DNA of 64,000 nt from Solemya velum gill symbiont. Lineage in GTDB: Bacteria; Pseudomonadota; Gammaproteobacteria; Chromatiales; Chromatiaceae. Each line of letters opens with the position of its first letter. Position 1 is the stretch's first letter. Shown one piece after another: positions 31,167 to 38,002 of this stretch. A program made the position numbers and the translations under genes. Where the stretch lies: NCBI RefSeq assembly GCF_000787395.1, contig NZ_JRAA01000002.1:124001-188000 (forward strand), in the 5' to 3' direction. Under the pieces are notes generated by a model that searched no databases, was not told the DNA's origin, and saw only the letters and a list, made by a program, of their open reading frames with translations.

Positions 31167-31751
31167 TCAGTCGAGATCTTCGCTCAATGAATCACGGATA
31201 TTGGCAGGAATCGGTGAAACTGAAATATTGTAGTGATCATGATCAATGCCGCCGTTGATAGCTGCACCCTGCTTGGCGGCTGCTGCCATCTCGGGGGTCA
31301 GTTCGAAACGCATGAAGTGCACGGCAGAGGTCTTGTCGGCCTCGGTACGCTCAAGATCTTCATCGGCAATTGCATACACCTTGTCGAAACCCTCAACTTG
31401 CATCCAGGTCTTGTCCTCGATACCAACCAGTTTCTCGAGTGCCTTGCGGCGCTCCTCGACATCACCATACTCAATCATGAAGGTTGCTTTCCAGTTGCAA
31501 CCATCCGGAACCAGGGGGTTGTAGGCATCAAGCTCTTCCTCGATACCCGCCTTCTCGAAGATTTTCTCGATGCGCAGCATCTCCTGTACCTGGTATTTCA
31601 TGGTCAGGTAATCTTCAAAATAGAGTGTGGCGTGCTCACCGATCGCGAGCGCGCGGTTTTTCTTGTGTTGCAGTACCTCTGCCCTGAAAGTCGGACGGGC
31701 TTCTGCGTATTCTTCAAGTGAGTAGAGTGTTTCGCGGGATAATTTTTGCAT
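31167..31751 (-). CDS. DUF3501 family protein
   Basis: 194-aa protein of the DUF3501 family: it opens with SRETLYSLEEYAEARPTFRA, has RALAIGEHATLYFEDYLTMKY and QVQEMLRIEKIFE, and ends with a FMRFELTPEMAAAAKQG segment. Function is unknown, but the family is consistently encoded beside rubrerythrin and CCG-type iron-sulfur proteins, as it is here, and an oxidative-stress or redox role is usually inferred. It is the third gene of this run. Confidence 0.92.
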   Translation of the reverse strand: MQKLSRETLYSLEEYAEARPTFRAEVLQHKKNRALAIGEHATLYFEDYLTMKYQVQEMLRIEKIFEKAGIEEELDAYNPLVPDGCNWKATFMIEYGDVEERRKALEKLVGIEDKTWMQVEGFDKVYAIADEDLERTEADKTSAVHFMRFELTPEMAAAAKQGAAINGGIDHDHYNISVSPIPANIRDSLSEDLD

Positions 31752-31822
31752 CAGTATTCAGTCGTGGGTAATTGATAGTCTATACACCGGAACTCCTGCA
31801 GGAGCCCCGGCGTCTCTACATG

Positions 31823-33145
31823 TCAGATTCCGTATGCCTTACGGATCAGTGAAATCGGATGTTCCGGATCACCATCGTCAGCAAGCGTATTTGAAATGTG
31901 TTGTGCCGCCATGACACAGTCCGAGGTGTAATGATCCGCCTCTGACTGGGTGACCTTTTTGGCGACCGGACGCGCGATTTTCATCGATACGTCATGAAAC
32001 TCTTTCTTCACTGCATATGTGCCATCATGTCCGGAACAACGCTCAATGGTATCGACTGATGTATCCGGAATCAGCTCCAGCAGTTCACGTGTCTTGGGAC
32101 CGATACGCTGTACACGCTGATGACAGGCAACATGCCAGGCAACTTTTCCCAGCGGCTGTTTGAAATCTGTTTTCAGCTTGCCGTGCTTGTGGCGCAGCAT
32201 GAGATACTCGAACGGGTCAAACATCGCTTCTGCAACTTTTGCGACATCCGCATCATCAGGAAACATCAACGGCAGTTCCTGTTTGAACATCAATACACAT
32301 GAGGGCACTGGTGCGACCAGGTCCCAGCCTGCATCGACCATTTTTACCATTGCCGGGATATTCACCTCTTTGGCAGCAGCAACCGCCTCGAGATCACCAA
32401 GCTCAAGCTTGGGCATTCCGCAGCACTGCTCTTTTTCAAGCAGGGTAACCGGAATCTCATTATGTTCAAATACGGCTTTCAGATCCTCACCGCTTGAAGG
32501 CGCATTGTAGTTACCGTAACAGGTAGCGAAAAGTGCAACCTTACCCTTTGTCGGACCGGCCTCTTCGCCTTGCGCCGAATCATTTTTCGAGAGGCGCTTG
32601 CGCAGGGTTGAACTGTGATATTCAGGCAGTTTCGCGCGAGCATCAACACCCAGGGTGTTTTCTATCAGCTTGCGCGTTGAGCTGTTTTTGTTAACGGAGT
32701 TAACAATACCGGCAACAACAGGGATACCGGCAAGTTTTCCGATCGTGTCGGTACTTGAGAGCAGTTTGTCACGGAATGTGGCACCCTCCTCACGGAACTT
32801 GACTGCCTTGGCACGCAGCATGACGTGCGGAAAATCAAGATCCCATTCGTGCGGGGGAACGTAGGGACACTTGGTCAGGAAGCAGAGATCACACAGGTAG
32901 CAGTGATCAACAACCTTCCAGTAATCATCCTTGGCAACGCCATCAACCTCGAAGGTATCTGATTCATCAACCAGGTCAAAGAGTGTCGGAAACGCATGAC
33001 ACAGGCTGACACAGCGTCGACAGCCGTGGCATATATCATAGACGCGCTCCAGCTCTTTAAAGAGATCTTCCTTATCGTAGAACTTCTCATCCTGCCAATT
33101 CAGCGGGTGGCGTGTTGGCGCCTCAAGGCTTCCCTCGCGTGACAT
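31823..33145 (-). CDS. Iron-sulfur CCG-domain oxidoreductase (GlpC/HdrD-like)
   Basis: N-terminal pair of 4Fe-4S motifs, CHGCRRCVSLC and CYLCDLCFLTKC, followed by two CCG cysteine-rich domains (EQCCGMPKLELGDLE; CHQRVQRIGPKTRELL and ERCSGHDGTYAV). This is the heterodisulfide-reductase subunit type, related to GlpC. It was assigned start ATG 33145 because GAGGT precedes it; the open frame extends to a TTG at 33163. It is flanked by rubrerythrin and DUF3501 genes on the same strand, a known gene set, and may pass electrons to rubrerythrin. Confidence 0.92.
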   Translation of the reverse strand: MSREGSLEAPTRHPLNWQDEKFYDKEDLFKELERVYDICHGCRRCVSLCHAFPTLFDLVDESDTFEVDGVAKDDYWKVVDHCYLCDLCFLTKCPYVPPHEWDLDFPHVMLRAKAVKFREEGATFRDKLLSSTDTIGKLAGIPVVAGIVNSVNKNSSTRKLIENTLGVDARAKLPEYHSSTLRKRLSKNDSAQGEEAGPTKGKVALFATCYGNYNAPSSGEDLKAVFEHNEIPVTLLEKEQCCGMPKLELGDLEAVAAAKEVNIPAMVKMVDAGWDLVAPVPSCVLMFKQELPLMFPDDADVAKVAEAMFDPFEYLMLRHKHGKLKTDFKQPLGKVAWHVACHQRVQRIGPKTRELLELIPDTSVDTIERCSGHDGTYAVKKEFHDVSMKIARPVAKKVTQSEADHYTSDCVMAAQHISNTLADDGDPEHPISLIRKAYGI

Positions 33146-33221
33146 CGTATCGACCTCGCACAATATAAATTCTGTATTTATGGAGGCTCCTCACCAGTAA
33201 GGTGAGGAGCACTTCAATGGA

Positions 33222-33641
33222 TTAACCGTCGAGGTTATCCAGTGCTTTCTGGAAGCGGTTAGCGTGTGAACGCTCGGCTTTCGCAAGGGTTTCGAACCAG
33301 TCAGCAATTTCGTCGTGACCTTCGTCACGTGCATCTTTTGCCATACCCGGATACATATCAGTGTACTCGTGAGTCTCACCGGCGATTGAAGCCTTCAGGT
33401 TGTCAGAAGTGCTACCGATTGGCAGACCGGTTGCCGGATCACCAACCTCTTCGAGGTACTCAAGGTGGCCGTGTGCGTGACCTGTTTCGCCTTCCGCAGT
33501 TGAACGGAATACAGCTGCAACATCGTTGTAACCCTCGATGTCGGCTTTTGATGCGAAGTAGAGATAACGACGGTTTGCCTGGGACTCACCGGCGAAGGCG
33601 TCCTTCAGGTGCTGTTCTGTCTTTGAACCTTTCAGTGACAT
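33222..33641 (-). CDS. Rubrerythrin-family ferritin-like protein (no rubredoxin domain)
   Basis: 139-aa di-iron protein: the ferritin-like four-helix region contains the metal-ligand glutamate/histidine pairs AGESQANRRYLYFASKAD, STAEGETGHAHGHLEYL, SIAGETHEY and AKAERSHANRF. The C-terminal rubredoxin domain of classical rubrerythrin is missing, so it depends on an external electron donor, perhaps the next gene's product. Peroxide reduction is the expected role. Start ATG 33641 is supported by GAGGAACAAG; the frame continues upstream without a good N-terminus. Confidence 0.92.
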   Translation of the reverse strand: MSLKGSKTEQHLKDAFAGESQANRRYLYFASKADIEGYNDVAAVFRSTAEGETGHAHGHLEYLEEVGDPATGLPIGSTSDNLKASIAGETHEYTDMYPGMAKDARDEGHDEIADWFETLAKAERSHANRFQKALDNLDG

Positions 33642-33853
33642 AACTTGTTCCTCGATTGTTTTATTGTGATTAATCATCCAGAACCACTCTGGATACCCAT
33701 GAATATGTCGCCCTGTTGATATTCTGCAAATCGCGATTGAAAACCGGACTTAAATCAGGGACAGAAGTAAGTTTACCCCTTATGAAAATTATTTTAATTG
33801 ATTATCTTAACGCAACCGATAGTTATTATTTATTCATGCGGAAATGAAAACGC

Positions 33854-33905: not shown

Positions 33906-35741
33906 TCAGGCGATGAGTTCAGTCGCCGTGCGGTCGATTTCGATACACATGGCGAATTGCTGCGGATGCTCGGCAAATTCCTGTGCAATAACAAATATTT
34001 GTGGCAACTGTCTAAAGCCAGTTAGACCATTGAGTCCAGCCTGCGTACGCTCTGCATCAAAGAATGCAAAAGGCTCATCGAGGAACAGGAACTGGTCACC
34101 CTTGACGCAATCGCGAGCCAGGGCCTGGGAGATGACGAGACGCACCGACAAAAGAATCTGGCGCTGTGTTCCACTCGAAACCTCATCAAAAACCATGAAG
34201 TCACCCTTCTCCGTCGACAGCACCTCGACATTCAGATTATCGTCGAGCTTGATGTGCTCATAACGACCCTGGGTCAGCATCGGCAGCAGCTGGGCTGTGC
34301 GCTCGCGGACTTCACGATTGAAAGCAGTGGCAAGATTCTCTGTTGCACCATCAAGGAGTGAGATCGCCGTCTTCAGTACCTTGAGCTGATGATTACTGTG
34401 CTCGAGAGCCTGCTCGTGGCCACCCTGCTCAAAGCGCAGACCATCAACAATCTTGGTGCGCTGCTCTTCCTTGTTGATCTGCTCTACCATTTCTGCAGCG
34501 AGTTCCGACTCTGCCTTGCTGACCTCGTTCAACCAGGTCACCTCAAGCTCGGACGCCTCACGTATATTGTCGATCTTTGCCTGTTGGCGCGCCATCTTGT
34601 GGCGCAGGTTTTGCGCCTCTGCATCGTCGATGGCCACGTCGATCGCACTGGCCGGAATATCGAGAAGAGCGAGATCATATCCACTTGCACGATGTTGCTG
34701 AACCTTTTCAAGCCCTTCCAGGTAGCCACTGGTCACGACAGAGAAATGCGCAATGCGGTATTTCGCCGTCATTTCCCGAATCCACAGGATAAATGCAATC
34801 AGGCCGAGACCTGCAGCTGCATAAACCAGGTATTGATAGTGACCTGAACCAAGCTGAACACTCTGCTTCAATTGCTCGGCAACACCAGTCACCATCTCGT
34901 TACTGCCAAGGTAGGCAAGCGCAAACCAGAGGAGAGCGGCAACTGCACCGGGTAAAAGGAAAGCCATCTGCAGCAAGCGACTGCGGAATCTCGCTCCGAT
35001 TGCCTGCTTGTATTTTTCCAGCTCAACCAGGTAAGCAGCACTCTTCTGACCAAGATCGATCGCCTGTTGCTGACATCTCGTTGTCGACTCCAGCAACGCA
35101 CCGCGGCGCTTCTGCATTTCCTCGAGTTGTCCGGGTACGACACCGAGTGCTTCGATCTCTCCCTGCAGGCGAATATGGTTATCGTCAGCCTCGACCATGA
35201 TGCCTTTATGGCGTTCGATCTCGTTTTGAAATTCGTCACGCAGCTGCTCCAGCGGCAATACACCTGCTATCGACTTGACCGCGTCACTGTGAGGATGCGG
35301 AGCAGAAATCTCGCGCTGTGCAAGATAGAAGGATTCAACATACTCGGGATAACCGAGTCCGATCAACTGCTGGATCATTGCAGTGACGGTATCGTTACCG
35401 CGTGCCAGGATGTTATCCGGATCTGATGTCTTGACCAGGCGTGCACCCTGCGTCAGGTTTTTGTCGATATGACGTGTCACTTCGTATTCAGTGCCATCGC
35501 CGACAACGAATCCGAGTGTCACCTGGCATGCGTTCTCACCCCAGCGGATAATTTTTGTCAGGTGATCTTCATCGAGAGAGAAAGTACGTCCGAAGAGTGC
35601 GTAACAGATGGTCTCGCCGATGGTACTTTTTCCAGATTCATTCGAGCCACTGATACCGATAAGGCCCAGGCGCGGGAGATCATCGAGTTGCAGACGGGCA
35701 TACTTGAGAACATTCTCCGCCCGCAGGTGAGTAATAATCAA
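33906..35741 (-). CDS. Rad50/SbcC-like ATPase with a membrane hairpin in the coiled coil
   Basis: 611 aa. N-terminal ABC-ATPase half with Walker A GSNESGKST (32-40) and Q-loop region; a coiled-coil arm (about 165-250); two strongly hydrophobic segments, MAFLLPGAVAALLWFALAYL (259-278) and YLVYAAAGLGLIAFILWI (304-321), with a 25-residue loop; a returning coiled coil (about 340-470); and the C-terminal ATPase half with signature SSGTQRQ (522-528) and Walker B FLFLDEP (551-557). The H-loop histidine is replaced by Q (VIAQEF). It starts at TTG 35741, overlapping the upstream stop (TTGA). No SbcD-type nuclease gene is next to it. Confidence 0.85.
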   Translation of the reverse strand: MIITHLRAENVLKYARLQLDDLPRLGLIGISGSNESGKSTIGETICYALFGRTFSLDEDHLTKIIRWGENACQVTLGFVVGDGTEYEVTRHIDKNLTQGARLVKTSDPDNILARGNDTVTAMIQQLIGLGYPEYVESFYLAQREISAPHPHSDAVKSIAGVLPLEQLRDEFQNEIERHKGIMVEADDNHIRLQGEIEALGVVPGQLEEMQKRRGALLESTTRCQQQAIDLGQKSAAYLVELEKYKQAIGARFRSRLLQMAFLLPGAVAALLWFALAYLGSNEMVTGVAEQLKQSVQLGSGHYQYLVYAAAGLGLIAFILWIREMTAKYRIAHFSVVTSGYLEGLEKVQQHRASGYDLALLDIPASAIDVAIDDAEAQNLRHKMARQQAKIDNIREASELEVTWLNEVSKAESELAAEMVEQINKEEQRTKIVDGLRFEQGGHEQALEHSNHQLKVLKTAISLLDGATENLATAFNREVRERTAQLLPMLTQGRYEHIKLDDNLNVEVLSTEKGDFMVFDEVSSGTQRQILLSVRLVISQALARDCVKGDQFLFLDEPFAFFDAERTQAGLNGLTGFRQLPQIFVIAQEFAEHPQQFAMCIEIDRTATELIA

Positions 35742-35968
35742 AGCACGTCCTCCACCAGCATACTGCGCAGACGATGCACCGTCATATCCACAGCCTCATC
35801 AAAGAGGCGGACATTAAATTCGTTATCGGTGCTCATCAAGTGCTCTTTTTCCTGTGACGCGTGATGAAGAAAGGCATTGATCTCTTTCGGATTATCCTGT
35901 TCTGAAGAGACGCCGTACAAGGTAGCAAGCGTCTCTTTAAGCGACTTTTCGGATTGATCCTGATCCAT
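35738..35968 (-). CDS. Small acidic protein coupled to the SMC-like ATPase, 76 aa
   Basis: Soluble acidic protein with a strong ribosome site (GGAGAAG before the ATG). It is predicted mostly helical (EKSLKETLATLYGVSSEQ, EINAFLHHASQEKEHL, LFDEAVDMTVHRLRSML). The frame is open to a GTG at 35989. I do not recognise a family. Its stop overlaps the TTG start of the ATPase gene by 4 bases, implying that the ATPase is translated by coupling and that the two products work together. Confidence 0.75.
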   Translation of the reverse strand: MDQDQSEKSLKETLATLYGVSSEQDNPKEINAFLHHASQEKEHLMSTDNEFNVRLFDEAVDMTVHRLRSMLVEDVL

Positions 35969-36169
35969 TTTTTCTTCTCCGGATTGCACTAAATGGGGGA
36001 ATATTATAAATCATTAATACACTGCTTTTCCCGGAATTTACTTGCGGAAAGAAAATCCCTGCTAAATGATGCCCTTACCTCCGGATTGCAGCCTGAATCA
36101 AGCACAGCAGATTCGAAAGTCAGAACAGATTTCAGGTAAGAGTTGCCTGCCACTGTCAACTTGCAGGAG

Positions 36170-38002
36170 CTATCCCAGGATCCGGAAACGCGCCTCAAGA
36201 TCACTGATATTGATGGAATCCACGGCAAGCCTGACCTGCTGGTCAAGTTCAAGACCGGCAACACGGCGCTGCTTCATCTCGAGCGCCAGCTGCGGAATAA
36301 TCAGCGTCATCTTTCGTTCATCCAGCTCTGCAACGACTGCTTCACCCTGCCACTCCCGGTTACGATGCAAATAGAGCAGTTTCCAGTGTTGATTGGAGAG
36401 CCGCTCACCCTTGCGAATCAACCTGCTGGCAGATTCGGCAATCGACAGGCGCTCACTCACCTGTGACTCATCAAGTAGCGTGTCTCCTCTTAGCCAGGCA
36501 TGCAGTTGCTGATGCGCAAGCAGGTCGGGATAACGTCGCAGAGGACTGGTCGTGCGCGTGTAATGTGGCAGGCCGAGACCGAAATGCGGTGCGGGCTCAA
36601 CTGTACCGCGGGACGGCTTGAACATGCGCCGGTAGGCAAATGTTTCACTCATCGTCTGTGGCTGGCGCACTTCGTCAGGCTCAGGCTGGCTCGCGAAAGG
36701 AATCGCAATCGTGTGCTCCTGGGCATACTTGGCCACTGCCTCACCTGCGGCAAGCATCGCTTCTGTCACCAGTTGTCGGCTGCCTCCCCTCTGGTAAGGC
36801 TGAATGACTATTTCATCATCGATGACGCGAACATTGACCTCGGGCAGATCCAGCGTGGCAGCACCTGCCTGCAACCTGCGTGCAGCAATCCTGTCTGTCA
36901 GCACCTTCAAACCGGCAAGATTGCCATCCAGTTCATGATCAGCGGCATCGTAGCTGGTGCGTGTCACTCTAACCAGGCTGGTCTCAATGCGAATATCATC
37001 CAGTTCGCCAGCATCATCGACGATGAAGCTGATACTGAGTGCGGGACTGGTCTCCTGCAGACCAAGACCAAGCTGCTGTGTCATGGCGTGCGGCAGCATG
37101 TGAATAACGCGGTCCGGTAGATAGAGGTTTGCCCCACGGCTACGCGCCTCTTCATCGAGGTTGGAACCCGGCTGAACAATCGCCGCTGCATCGGCGACAT
37201 GTACATAGAGCCGGTCACCATCAAGACTGATGGCATCATCAGGATCCTGGCTACCAGCATCATCGATTGCCCAGGCAATTAAATCGCGAAGATCTGTACG
37301 CTGCGGTTCAGCCGGGTCATCGAAATCAAGCAGGTTGTCGTCAAGGCTAATACCATGACGGCGTGGATGCGGGTTGTACTCTTCGCTCCAGTAACCAATC
37401 TGAACCAGCAAACGGTGTGCATTGGCCGGTGTTACCGACAGGTCAATTGCATCGAGAATTCGGCTCTTGTCAGATTCTGCATGTGCAACCCGCTCAACCT
37501 CGACAAGTGCGGGCCTGTCACTCTCTGCCATCTGCCTCTTCTTCAGGCGTTCCAGCATCTCTTCCCAGTCAGCCTTCTCTCGTGCCTTGGCATCACGCTT
37601 GGCAATATCCTCTTCGACCAGCTCTGCCGGCCTGGCCTTGACGGCATCCGCTTCGCCGCTGAAATAGAGACCTTCATTGAGAAGCTGCCAGGCGCCCCAT
37701 GCCGAAGCAGGCGTAAACTCGCCGTAGAGCAGGTCGGCAAAATCCTCAAAAGGAAGCGCTTCATCGAGCAGCAGCTCGCGTGCATCATCAAGTCCGGGGG
37801 CATCGGCGACGCCACCCGGTAATACTGAAACAGGTCCCGGATGCAGTGGCGTCACATCTTTTTCACGCACGCGTTTGCTTCCACCATCGTATTCAATATC
37901 GATTTTATCGCTGATTGCGCGCACTACTGCTGGCCGGCTCTTGTAAAGCACCAGGCCGTTTGTCTGTATTTTTTGTCCCACGGGGCTCACGAATTGAGTC
38001 AC
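36170..38002 (-). CDS. RNase II/R-family exoribonuclease
   Basis: 610 aa. A cold-shock/OB-like N-terminal region is followed by the RNB catalytic domain: DDAGSQDPDDAIS (247-259), whose aspartates match the metal ligands of RNase II, and later YTRTTSPLRRYPDLLAHQQL. A C-terminal region (LSNQHWKLLYLHRNREWQG, VDSINISDLEARFRILG) resembles the S1 part in reduced form. It degrades RNA 3' to 5'. The GTG start (38002) has AAGG at the right distance. It is shorter than RNase R (about 800 aa) and has no clear full S1 domain. Confidence 0.92.
   Translation of the reverse strand: MTQFVSPVGQKIQTNGLVLYKSRPAVVRAISDKIDIEYDGGSKRVREKDVTPLHPGPVSVLPGGVADAPGLDDARELLLDEALPFEDFADLLYGEFTPASAWGAWQLLNEGLYFSGEADAVKARPAELVEEDIAKRDAKAREKADWEEMLERLKKRQMAESDRPALVEVERVAHAESDKSRILDAIDLSVTPANAHRLLVQIGYWSEEYNPHPRRHGISLDDNLLDFDDPAEPQRTDLRDLIAWAIDDAGSQDPDDAISLDGDRLYVHVADAAAIVQPGSNLDEEARSRGANLYLPDRVIHMLPHAMTQQLGLGLQETSPALSISFIVDDAGELDDIRIETSLVRVTRTSYDAADHELDGNLAGLKVLTDRIAARRLQAGAATLDLPEVNVRVIDDEIVIQPYQRGGSRQLVTEAMLAAGEAVAKYAQEHTIAIPFASQPEPDEVRQPQTMSETFAYRRMFKPSRGTVEPAPHFGLGLPHYTRTTSPLRRYPDLLAHQQLHAWLRGDTLLDESQVSERLSIAESASRLIRKGERLSNQHWKLLYLHRNREWQGEAVVAELDERKMTLIIPQLALEMKQRRVAGLELDQQVRLAVDSINISDLEARFRILG

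Follow-up and report, generated by a model that had tools for sequence, protein, structure and literature searches.

YhaN and YhaO together make up the SbcEF pair. PMC6452273 implicates SbcEF in double-strand-break repair and calls its role poorly characterised. PMC7260605 describes the Rad50-binding domain of Mre11 as a helix-loop-helix that makes contact with the coil at its base, and PMC10586767 describes the Lamassu protein LmuB as being about 650 aa long, often accompanied by a small protein (LmuC), generally carrying a Glu-to-Gln change in Walker B and often having a zinc hook. In this work a gene pair from the Solemya velum gill symbiont was analyzed within a stretch of 64,000 nucleotides, referred to below as the window, together with its homologues. 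Our best explanation, which we hold with moderate confidence, is that the two genes constitute a chromosomal system from a branch of the YhaN/Rad50 group that is tethered to the membrane and carries no nuclease gene, in which a helical-hairpin partner may dock in the manner of the Mre11 Rad50-binding domain and which would serve in DNA capture or tethering.

The ATPase and its hinge

The features of the locus, in window coordinates, are the following.

33906..35741, minus strand: Rad50/SMC-like ABC ATPase with arms and predicted hinge hairpin (ORF of 611 aa, TTG start)
35625..35648, minus strand: Walker A motif GSNESGKS, residues 32-39
34158..34178, minus strand: modified ABC signature SSGTQRQ, residues 522-528
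34074..34088, minus strand: Walker B motif LFLDE, residues 552-556
33981..33983, minus strand: H-loop position, Gln587
34908..34967, minus strand: predicted transmembrane segment 1, residues 259-278 (from hydropathy and sequence)
34779..34835, minus strand: predicted transmembrane segment 2, residues 303-321, preceded by a loop predicted to be periplasmic
35738..35968, minus strand: 76-aa putative partner protein, probably a helical hairpin, whose gene ends in a 4-nt overlap with the start of the ATPase gene

The initial annotation had described the larger gene as encoding a Rad50/SMC-like ATPase with Walker A, signature and Walker B motifs, and all three (GSNESGKS, SSGTQRQ and LFLDE) are present. 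In a 34-row alignment of the family, residues G32, N34, E35, G37 and K38 of Walker A, S522, G524 and Q528 of the signature, D555 and E556 of Walker B, and Q587 are invariant, while Q142 is kept in at least 90% of the rows. The replacement of the H-loop histidine by glutamine, first noticed as Gln587 of the window protein, extends to 57 of 59 members of a wider set; the remaining two, L111 and L112, have proline, and L098 and L101, which lie outside the 59 scored sequences, have glutamate at this position as judged by eye and are thus further exceptions to Gln. In members from outside the class of the window genome the signature has for the most part changed to S[ST]G[VA]..Q or SRGL..Q. Besides their proline, L111 and L112 have a Walker B region reading DEPLAYSD and diverged small proteins, which suggests a functionally altered subgroup; the small protein of L109 is diverged as well.

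The generic Pfam family AAA_23 was the only model whose cut-off was reached by the ATPase (3.2e-13 for the window protein), the window protein being compared with Pfam, NCBIfam and PADLOC and 34 family ATPases with NCBIfam and Pfam. The window ATPase stays below the cut-off of SMC_N (28.2 bits, cut-off 40) and does not reach that of AAA_27 (13.9 bits, cut-off 22); at E <= 0.001 SMC_N matches 34 of 34 family ATPases and AAA_27 matches 2 of 34. Scores against the NCBIfam SbcC model TIGR00618 (46.5 bits, curated cut-off 478.5) and four NCBIfam Rad50 models (35.8-45.7 bits, cut-offs 847-1087) are far below those required. The Rad50 structure 5f3w was matched at 5e-15 with the single sequence and at 1.5e-43 with the family profile, the Rad50 profile matches covering both head lobes. 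An AlphaFold2 model of the ATPase, made from a two-row alignment, had a pLDDT of 34 and was not used, and the assignments of fold and topology rest on profiles, hydropathy and charge.

These matches bear on a reading in which the ATPase is a membrane-tethered SMC protein that organises or tethers the chromosome, with the small protein as a kleisin-like or otherwise regulatory subunit bridging the heads. The short helical partner and the tight pairing of the two genes would fit such an arrangement, as would the SMC_N matches in all 34 members, yet the window protein itself falls below the SMC_N cut-off and the heads match Rad50 far better than Smc5, for which the family profile gave only 7.3e-7 as against 1.5e-43 for 5f3w. 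Moreover, SMC_N is the only SMC family listed for these ATPases, with no hinge-domain family among the matches listed, and a kleisin would be expected to be longer than 65 aa; we consider this reading unlikely.

At the hinge, where a zinc hook would be expected of a Rad50 relative, the initial annotation had instead noted two hydrophobic segments. Read from the sequence, they span approximately residues 259-278 and 303-321 of the window ATPase, and L020, a 92% identical copy, has hydrophobic windows at 260-278 and 303-321. Both segments are found at a Kyte-Doolittle value (KD19) of at least 1.4 in 62 of 65 members and of at least 1.2 in 64 of 65, and in the same scan of 65 members L093 showed a single segment. 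A CxxC motif of the zinc-hook type occurs within residues 200-560 in four of 66 sequences and is absent from that range in the window ATPase. All 64 scorable sequences follow a positive-inside pattern, lysine and arginine being denser outside the pair of segments than in the loop (4.4 K+R per 15 aa before the first segment, 3.8 after the second and 0.7 in the loop), and the loop has a median length of 28 aa (range 6 to 52). The hairpin is the fastest-changing part of the ATPase, with a dN/dS of 0.33 as opposed to 0.013 in the C-lobe, which counts against the preferred explanation. At a hydropathy threshold of 1.5, the 29 related Rad50-like proteins encoded on viral contigs all lacked a central hairpin. 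The topology put forward initially, with the heads in the cytoplasm and the hinge tethered in the membrane, is therefore also the one predicted from the positive-inside pattern. That the segments form a buried hinge and do not span the membrane is a reading that might be entertained on the grounds that the topology rests on hydropathy and charge and that the model had so low a pLDDT; with the charge pattern in 64 of 64 sequences and the range of loop lengths against it, we regard it as very improbable indeed.

The small protein and its pairing with the ATPase

The gene preceding the ATPase was initially described as translationally coupled to it through a TTGA overlap, and this is borne out: the TGA of the 76-aa ORF overlaps the TTG start of the ATPase by 4 nt, and an alternative GTG start at 35989 would give a small protein of 83 aa. 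When 65 loci were searched with a profile built from 28 small-protein sequences, 59 proved to have a small protein immediately upstream of the ATPase, 50 of them sharing the 4-nt overlap, and the profile had no match elsewhere in those loci (11,601 ORFs); in held-out loci outside the class of the window genome, which were absent from the profile, it was found in 25 of 29. The six loci missed by the profile were inspected by eye. Three (L109, L111 and L112) have a diverged look-alike ORF with a 4-nt overlap, L087 is cut by a contig end, and no small ORF was seen in L081. At the sixth, L082, a 102-codon frame unmatched by the profile shares 4 nt with the beginning of the ATPase gene; its kinship is doubtful, and it may be either a diverged or a different partner.

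Within the class of the window genome, homologues of the ATPase occur in 38 of 274 genomes (window genome included), 27 with strong matches (E < 1e-20) and 11 with weak ones; the weak homologues that were opened proved to be SbcC- or YhaN-like. The small protein is present in 25 of the 274 genomes, each of them one of the 27 strong ATPase carriers, and in none of the 247 lacking a strong match, the latter being the informative half of the comparison since the profile was partly built from these class genomes. The two strong carriers without the small protein, G126 and G242, belong to one bacterial family. From this co-occurrence the small protein appears to be a dedicated partner of the ATPase.

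Small proteins of the family are 65-76 aa long. An AlphaFold2 model made from two near-identical sequences has helices at residues 3-17, 27-46 and 50-75, with a mean pLDDT of 74 and values of 83-92 over residues 31-70. Compared with Pfam, the 28 small proteins gave nothing better than E 0.02, and the window protein reached no cut-off in Pfam, NCBIfam or PADLOC. A Foldseek search of the PDB with the model returned nothing significant (best E 2.5), and a sequence search of the PDB with the profile gave matches only at E 0.18 and above.

A different partner in place of a linked SbcD had been proposed for the ATPase, and the loci agree with this: no SbcD/Mre11 gene lies next to the ATPase, and the small protein occupies that place in the 59 loci where the profile found it. 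We also considered whether the ATPase forms a complex of the Rad50/SbcC type with an SbcD-like nuclease encoded elsewhere. SbcD was surveyed in 35 of the 38 strong ATPase carriers (G002, G006 and G009 are incomplete and were left out) and in 35 genomes without the ATPase, and it was above cut-off in 13 carriers as compared with four non-carriers, which is the point in favor of a distant nuclease. Against it, the gene lies on another contig in 12 of these 13 carriers and about 198 kb away in the other, five further carriers have only weaker matches between 1e-10 and 1e-15, and nothing SbcD-like stronger than 1e-10 was found in 17 of the 35. The candidate in the window genome is likewise only a weak match, and the distant-nuclease reading seems to us very unlikely. 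This candidate, a metallophosphoesterase of 377 aa whose N-terminal part is hydrophobic, sits among unrelated genes and was rejected as an SbcD partner.

Distribution, phylogeny and gene neighbourhood

The window genome has one ATPase match. A 92% identical copy is present in the Solemya elarraichensis gill symbiont, and homologues were found in 15 of 38 relatives, again counting the window genome. Across the phylum, 34 of 398 genomes match the family profile at E <= 1e-20, of which 33 are outside the class of the window genome. The ATPases range overall from about 560 to 790 aa, with short members of about 560-655 aa and long members of about 720-780 aa, which have approximately 100 extra residues in the first arm. 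In the comparison with the Solemya elarraichensis symbiont the ATPase gene is under purifying selection (dN/dS 0.079); the small protein has a dN/dS of 0.044, from just 12 differences, and the pair lies in the range of three neighbour genes (0 to 0.072).

A tree of the head domains was calculated from 59 family sequences, six YhaN or LongTM sequences, four SbcC sequences and nine sequences from viral contigs. The 59 were taken from 62, leaving aside L098 and L101 (Walker A GPDExGKS) and L114 (cut short); L047, L055, L063 and L073 had been dropped earlier as near-duplicate or truncated. The family forms one clade with a UFBoot support of 100 (an unrooted split), lying outside the YhaN clade, and the six YhaN/LongTM sequences form a clade of their own, also at 100. 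The two together are joined at 91.

The neighbourhood of the pair was counted as ORFs of at least 100 aa within 4 kb of 37 loci from 17 bacterial families, some of the contigs being short. No fixed neighbours emerged, as no ORF cluster spans more than four families, the widest being GGDEF-like (named by eye). An RNase II-family gene had been noted upstream of the pair in the window, and it is indeed there (36170-38002, minus strand), encoding a protein of 610 aa in which an HTH_RNase_II part precedes the RNB domain and which scores far below the NCBIfam cut-offs for RNase R and RNase II. The functional link that had been considered for it was not supported. Joint RNA processing with this protein would be in keeping with the presence of the RNB gene near nine of the 13 loci that belong to the window's own bacterial family and of an HrpB-like helicase (named by eye) near 6 of the 13, but both genes are missing from the 24 loci that represent 16 further families; a joint role has next to no likelihood in our judgement, and the RNase II gene seems to be there through synteny within the lineage. 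Downstream of the pair, 31167-33677 (minus strand) encodes in a row a DUF3501 protein, a GlpC-like Cys-rich Fe-S protein and a rubrerythrin.

A link to defence had also been suggested initially. Anti-phage systems of the Lamassu or MADS sort are brought to mind by the PADLOC models mad3, mad8 and one for LmuB, which match 34, 33 and 31 of 34 members, respectively, at E <= 1e-5, as well as by the similar size of LmuB and its frequent small companion LmuC (PMC10586767). Nevertheless, among ten neighbours in the window there was no PADLOC match at 1e-5, and hence no LmuA effector, the neighbours being mostly metabolic genes. No match was found in 50,697 phage records, and plasmid matches were limited to seven of 72,556 records, all of them partial and covering at most 37% of the query. 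E556 is invariant in the 34 rows and the hook is absent, as opposed to the general Glu-to-Gln change and frequent zinc hook of LmuB described in that source. The small-protein profile had no match in the 29 viral-contig relatives. A defence role is possible and poorly supported, and as an explanation of the locus we hold it to be improbable; the suggestion was not upheld.

Mode of action and comparison with known systems

The small protein was compared with the C-termini of YhaO. Its 59-sequence profile aligned to them with a score of 16.0 (P 0.011, hhalign probability 3.9%), setting last helix on last helix, whereas 60 column shuffles all scored less (maximum 13.3), the reversed profile scored 10.1 and six other YhaO windows scored 7.9-11.1; with the 28-sequence profile the score was 10.8, near the controls of the larger profile. 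Taken singly, 18 YhaO C-termini had a median of 11.2 and a maximum of 19.8 and as a group scored above 197 control C-termini (of 220 submitted; median 7.5, maximum 14.8), 6% of which reached the YhaO median. The Mann-Whitney value of 5e-8 for this difference is not a true probability, since the 18 are homologous with each other. We regard this likeness as weak, a lead and not homology. Tentatively, the small protein might be a stand-alone Rad50-binding helical hairpin that derives from the C-terminus of a metallophosphoesterase, as a relic of it or as a copy that still functions. The system would then be a machine of the Rad50-Mre11 type that has lost the nuclease and set the hinge into the inner membrane, where it would act as an ATP switch that captures DNA; taken as a whole, we give this possibility a fairly low probability.

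Under the preferred explanation of a membrane-tethered branch without a nuclease gene, the ATPase would dimerise head to head in the manner of Rad50, and its short arms would end in a transmembrane hairpin instead of a zinc hook or an SMC hinge, so that the hinge would be fixed in the inner membrane with the heads facing the cytoplasm. The small partner would most likely dock on the ATPase head or on the base of the coil, which is where the C-terminal helices of metallophosphoesterases hold Rad50 relatives. Opening and closing of the heads, driven by ATP, would then serve to catch DNA, or some other nucleic-acid structure, or to tether it at the membrane, and not to cut it, since the system has no nuclease gene of its own. 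On the sequence evidence the system is most likely an ATP switch that sits at the inner membrane and captures or tethers nucleic acid. If this is true, the Rad50/YhaN architecture can work without a nuclease and with a membrane-fixed hinge, and coiled-coil DNA machines would be linked to the cell envelope; the two small genes would also offer a minimal system for studying head movement without hook or nuclease.

The family resembles Rad50/SbcC with Mre11/SbcD in having both head lobes. It differs in that those systems have a zinc hook, an LSGGE signature, the H-loop histidine and a nuclease, whereas the family has a predicted hairpin, SSGTQRQ, glutamine and no linked nuclease. With Lamassu LmuB/LmuC, as PMC10586767 describes them, it shares size, SMC-like heads and a small companion; relative to LmuB as described there, the family is without an effector beside it and without a hook, keeps the Walker B Glu and has the predicted hinge hairpin.

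YhaN/YhaO are the nearest sampled relatives in the tree and are alike in their SxGT..Q signature and the surroundings of Walker B. For this comparison YhaN-like loci L084, L155, L156, L157, L164-L166, L172 and L173 were used, L169 being cut by a contig end and left out. A predicted hinge hairpin is present in four of 11 sisters from two genera, L084 and L155 in one and the LongTM loci L158 and L159 in the other, and was not seen in L156, L157, L164, L165, L166, L172 or L173. A hinge hairpin is accordingly not new in the YhaN/Rad50 group, some sisters apparently carrying one too, and L084 and L155 share this trait of the family. A metallophosphoesterase-like frame, recognised by its motif pattern, adjoins and precedes the ATPase in nine of the 11 sisters, including all four with the hairpin; the two exceptions, which count against the preferred explanation, are L156, with no adjoining phosphoesterase, and L157, which begins at a contig end. 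A YhaO-protein search also finds the phosphoesterase in L084, L155 and L165, and it is marked by a weak SbcD match in L164, L166 and L173. At another locus, L168 (G107:C10), a YhaN-type N-terminal match runs across stop-bearing frames close to where the contig ends, next to a YhaO-type gene whose frame is open, and the same genome (G107) also carries the ATPase/small-protein pair.

The LongTM ATPases of L158 and L159 are similar to the family in their predicted hinge hairpin, their SSGTRMQ signature and the Gln at the apparent H-loop; they differ in the adjoining metallophosphoesterase-like frame (by pattern) and in a long extension after the head. Their frames (L158:2459-5990 and L159:2629-6160, 1176 aa each, with the extension after the C-terminal head lobe) seem to be a further variant.

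No description of such an ATPase/small-protein pair was found in the literature, the search covering open-licence papers only. The survey of homologous neighbourhoods for which the initial annotation had called showed the pair to be conserved, without a linked SbcD, while the sister YhaN-like loci usually have a metallophosphoesterase. YhaN-like proteins are about 900-1250 aa long, usually with an adjoining metallophosphoesterase, and have His at the H-loop in the four sequences compared, whereas members of the family are about 560-790 aa long, have Gln at that position and have the small protein instead. As far as can be judged from the sequences, it is the dedicated small partner, together with the lack of a linked phosphoesterase, that sets the family apart from its YhaN-type sisters.
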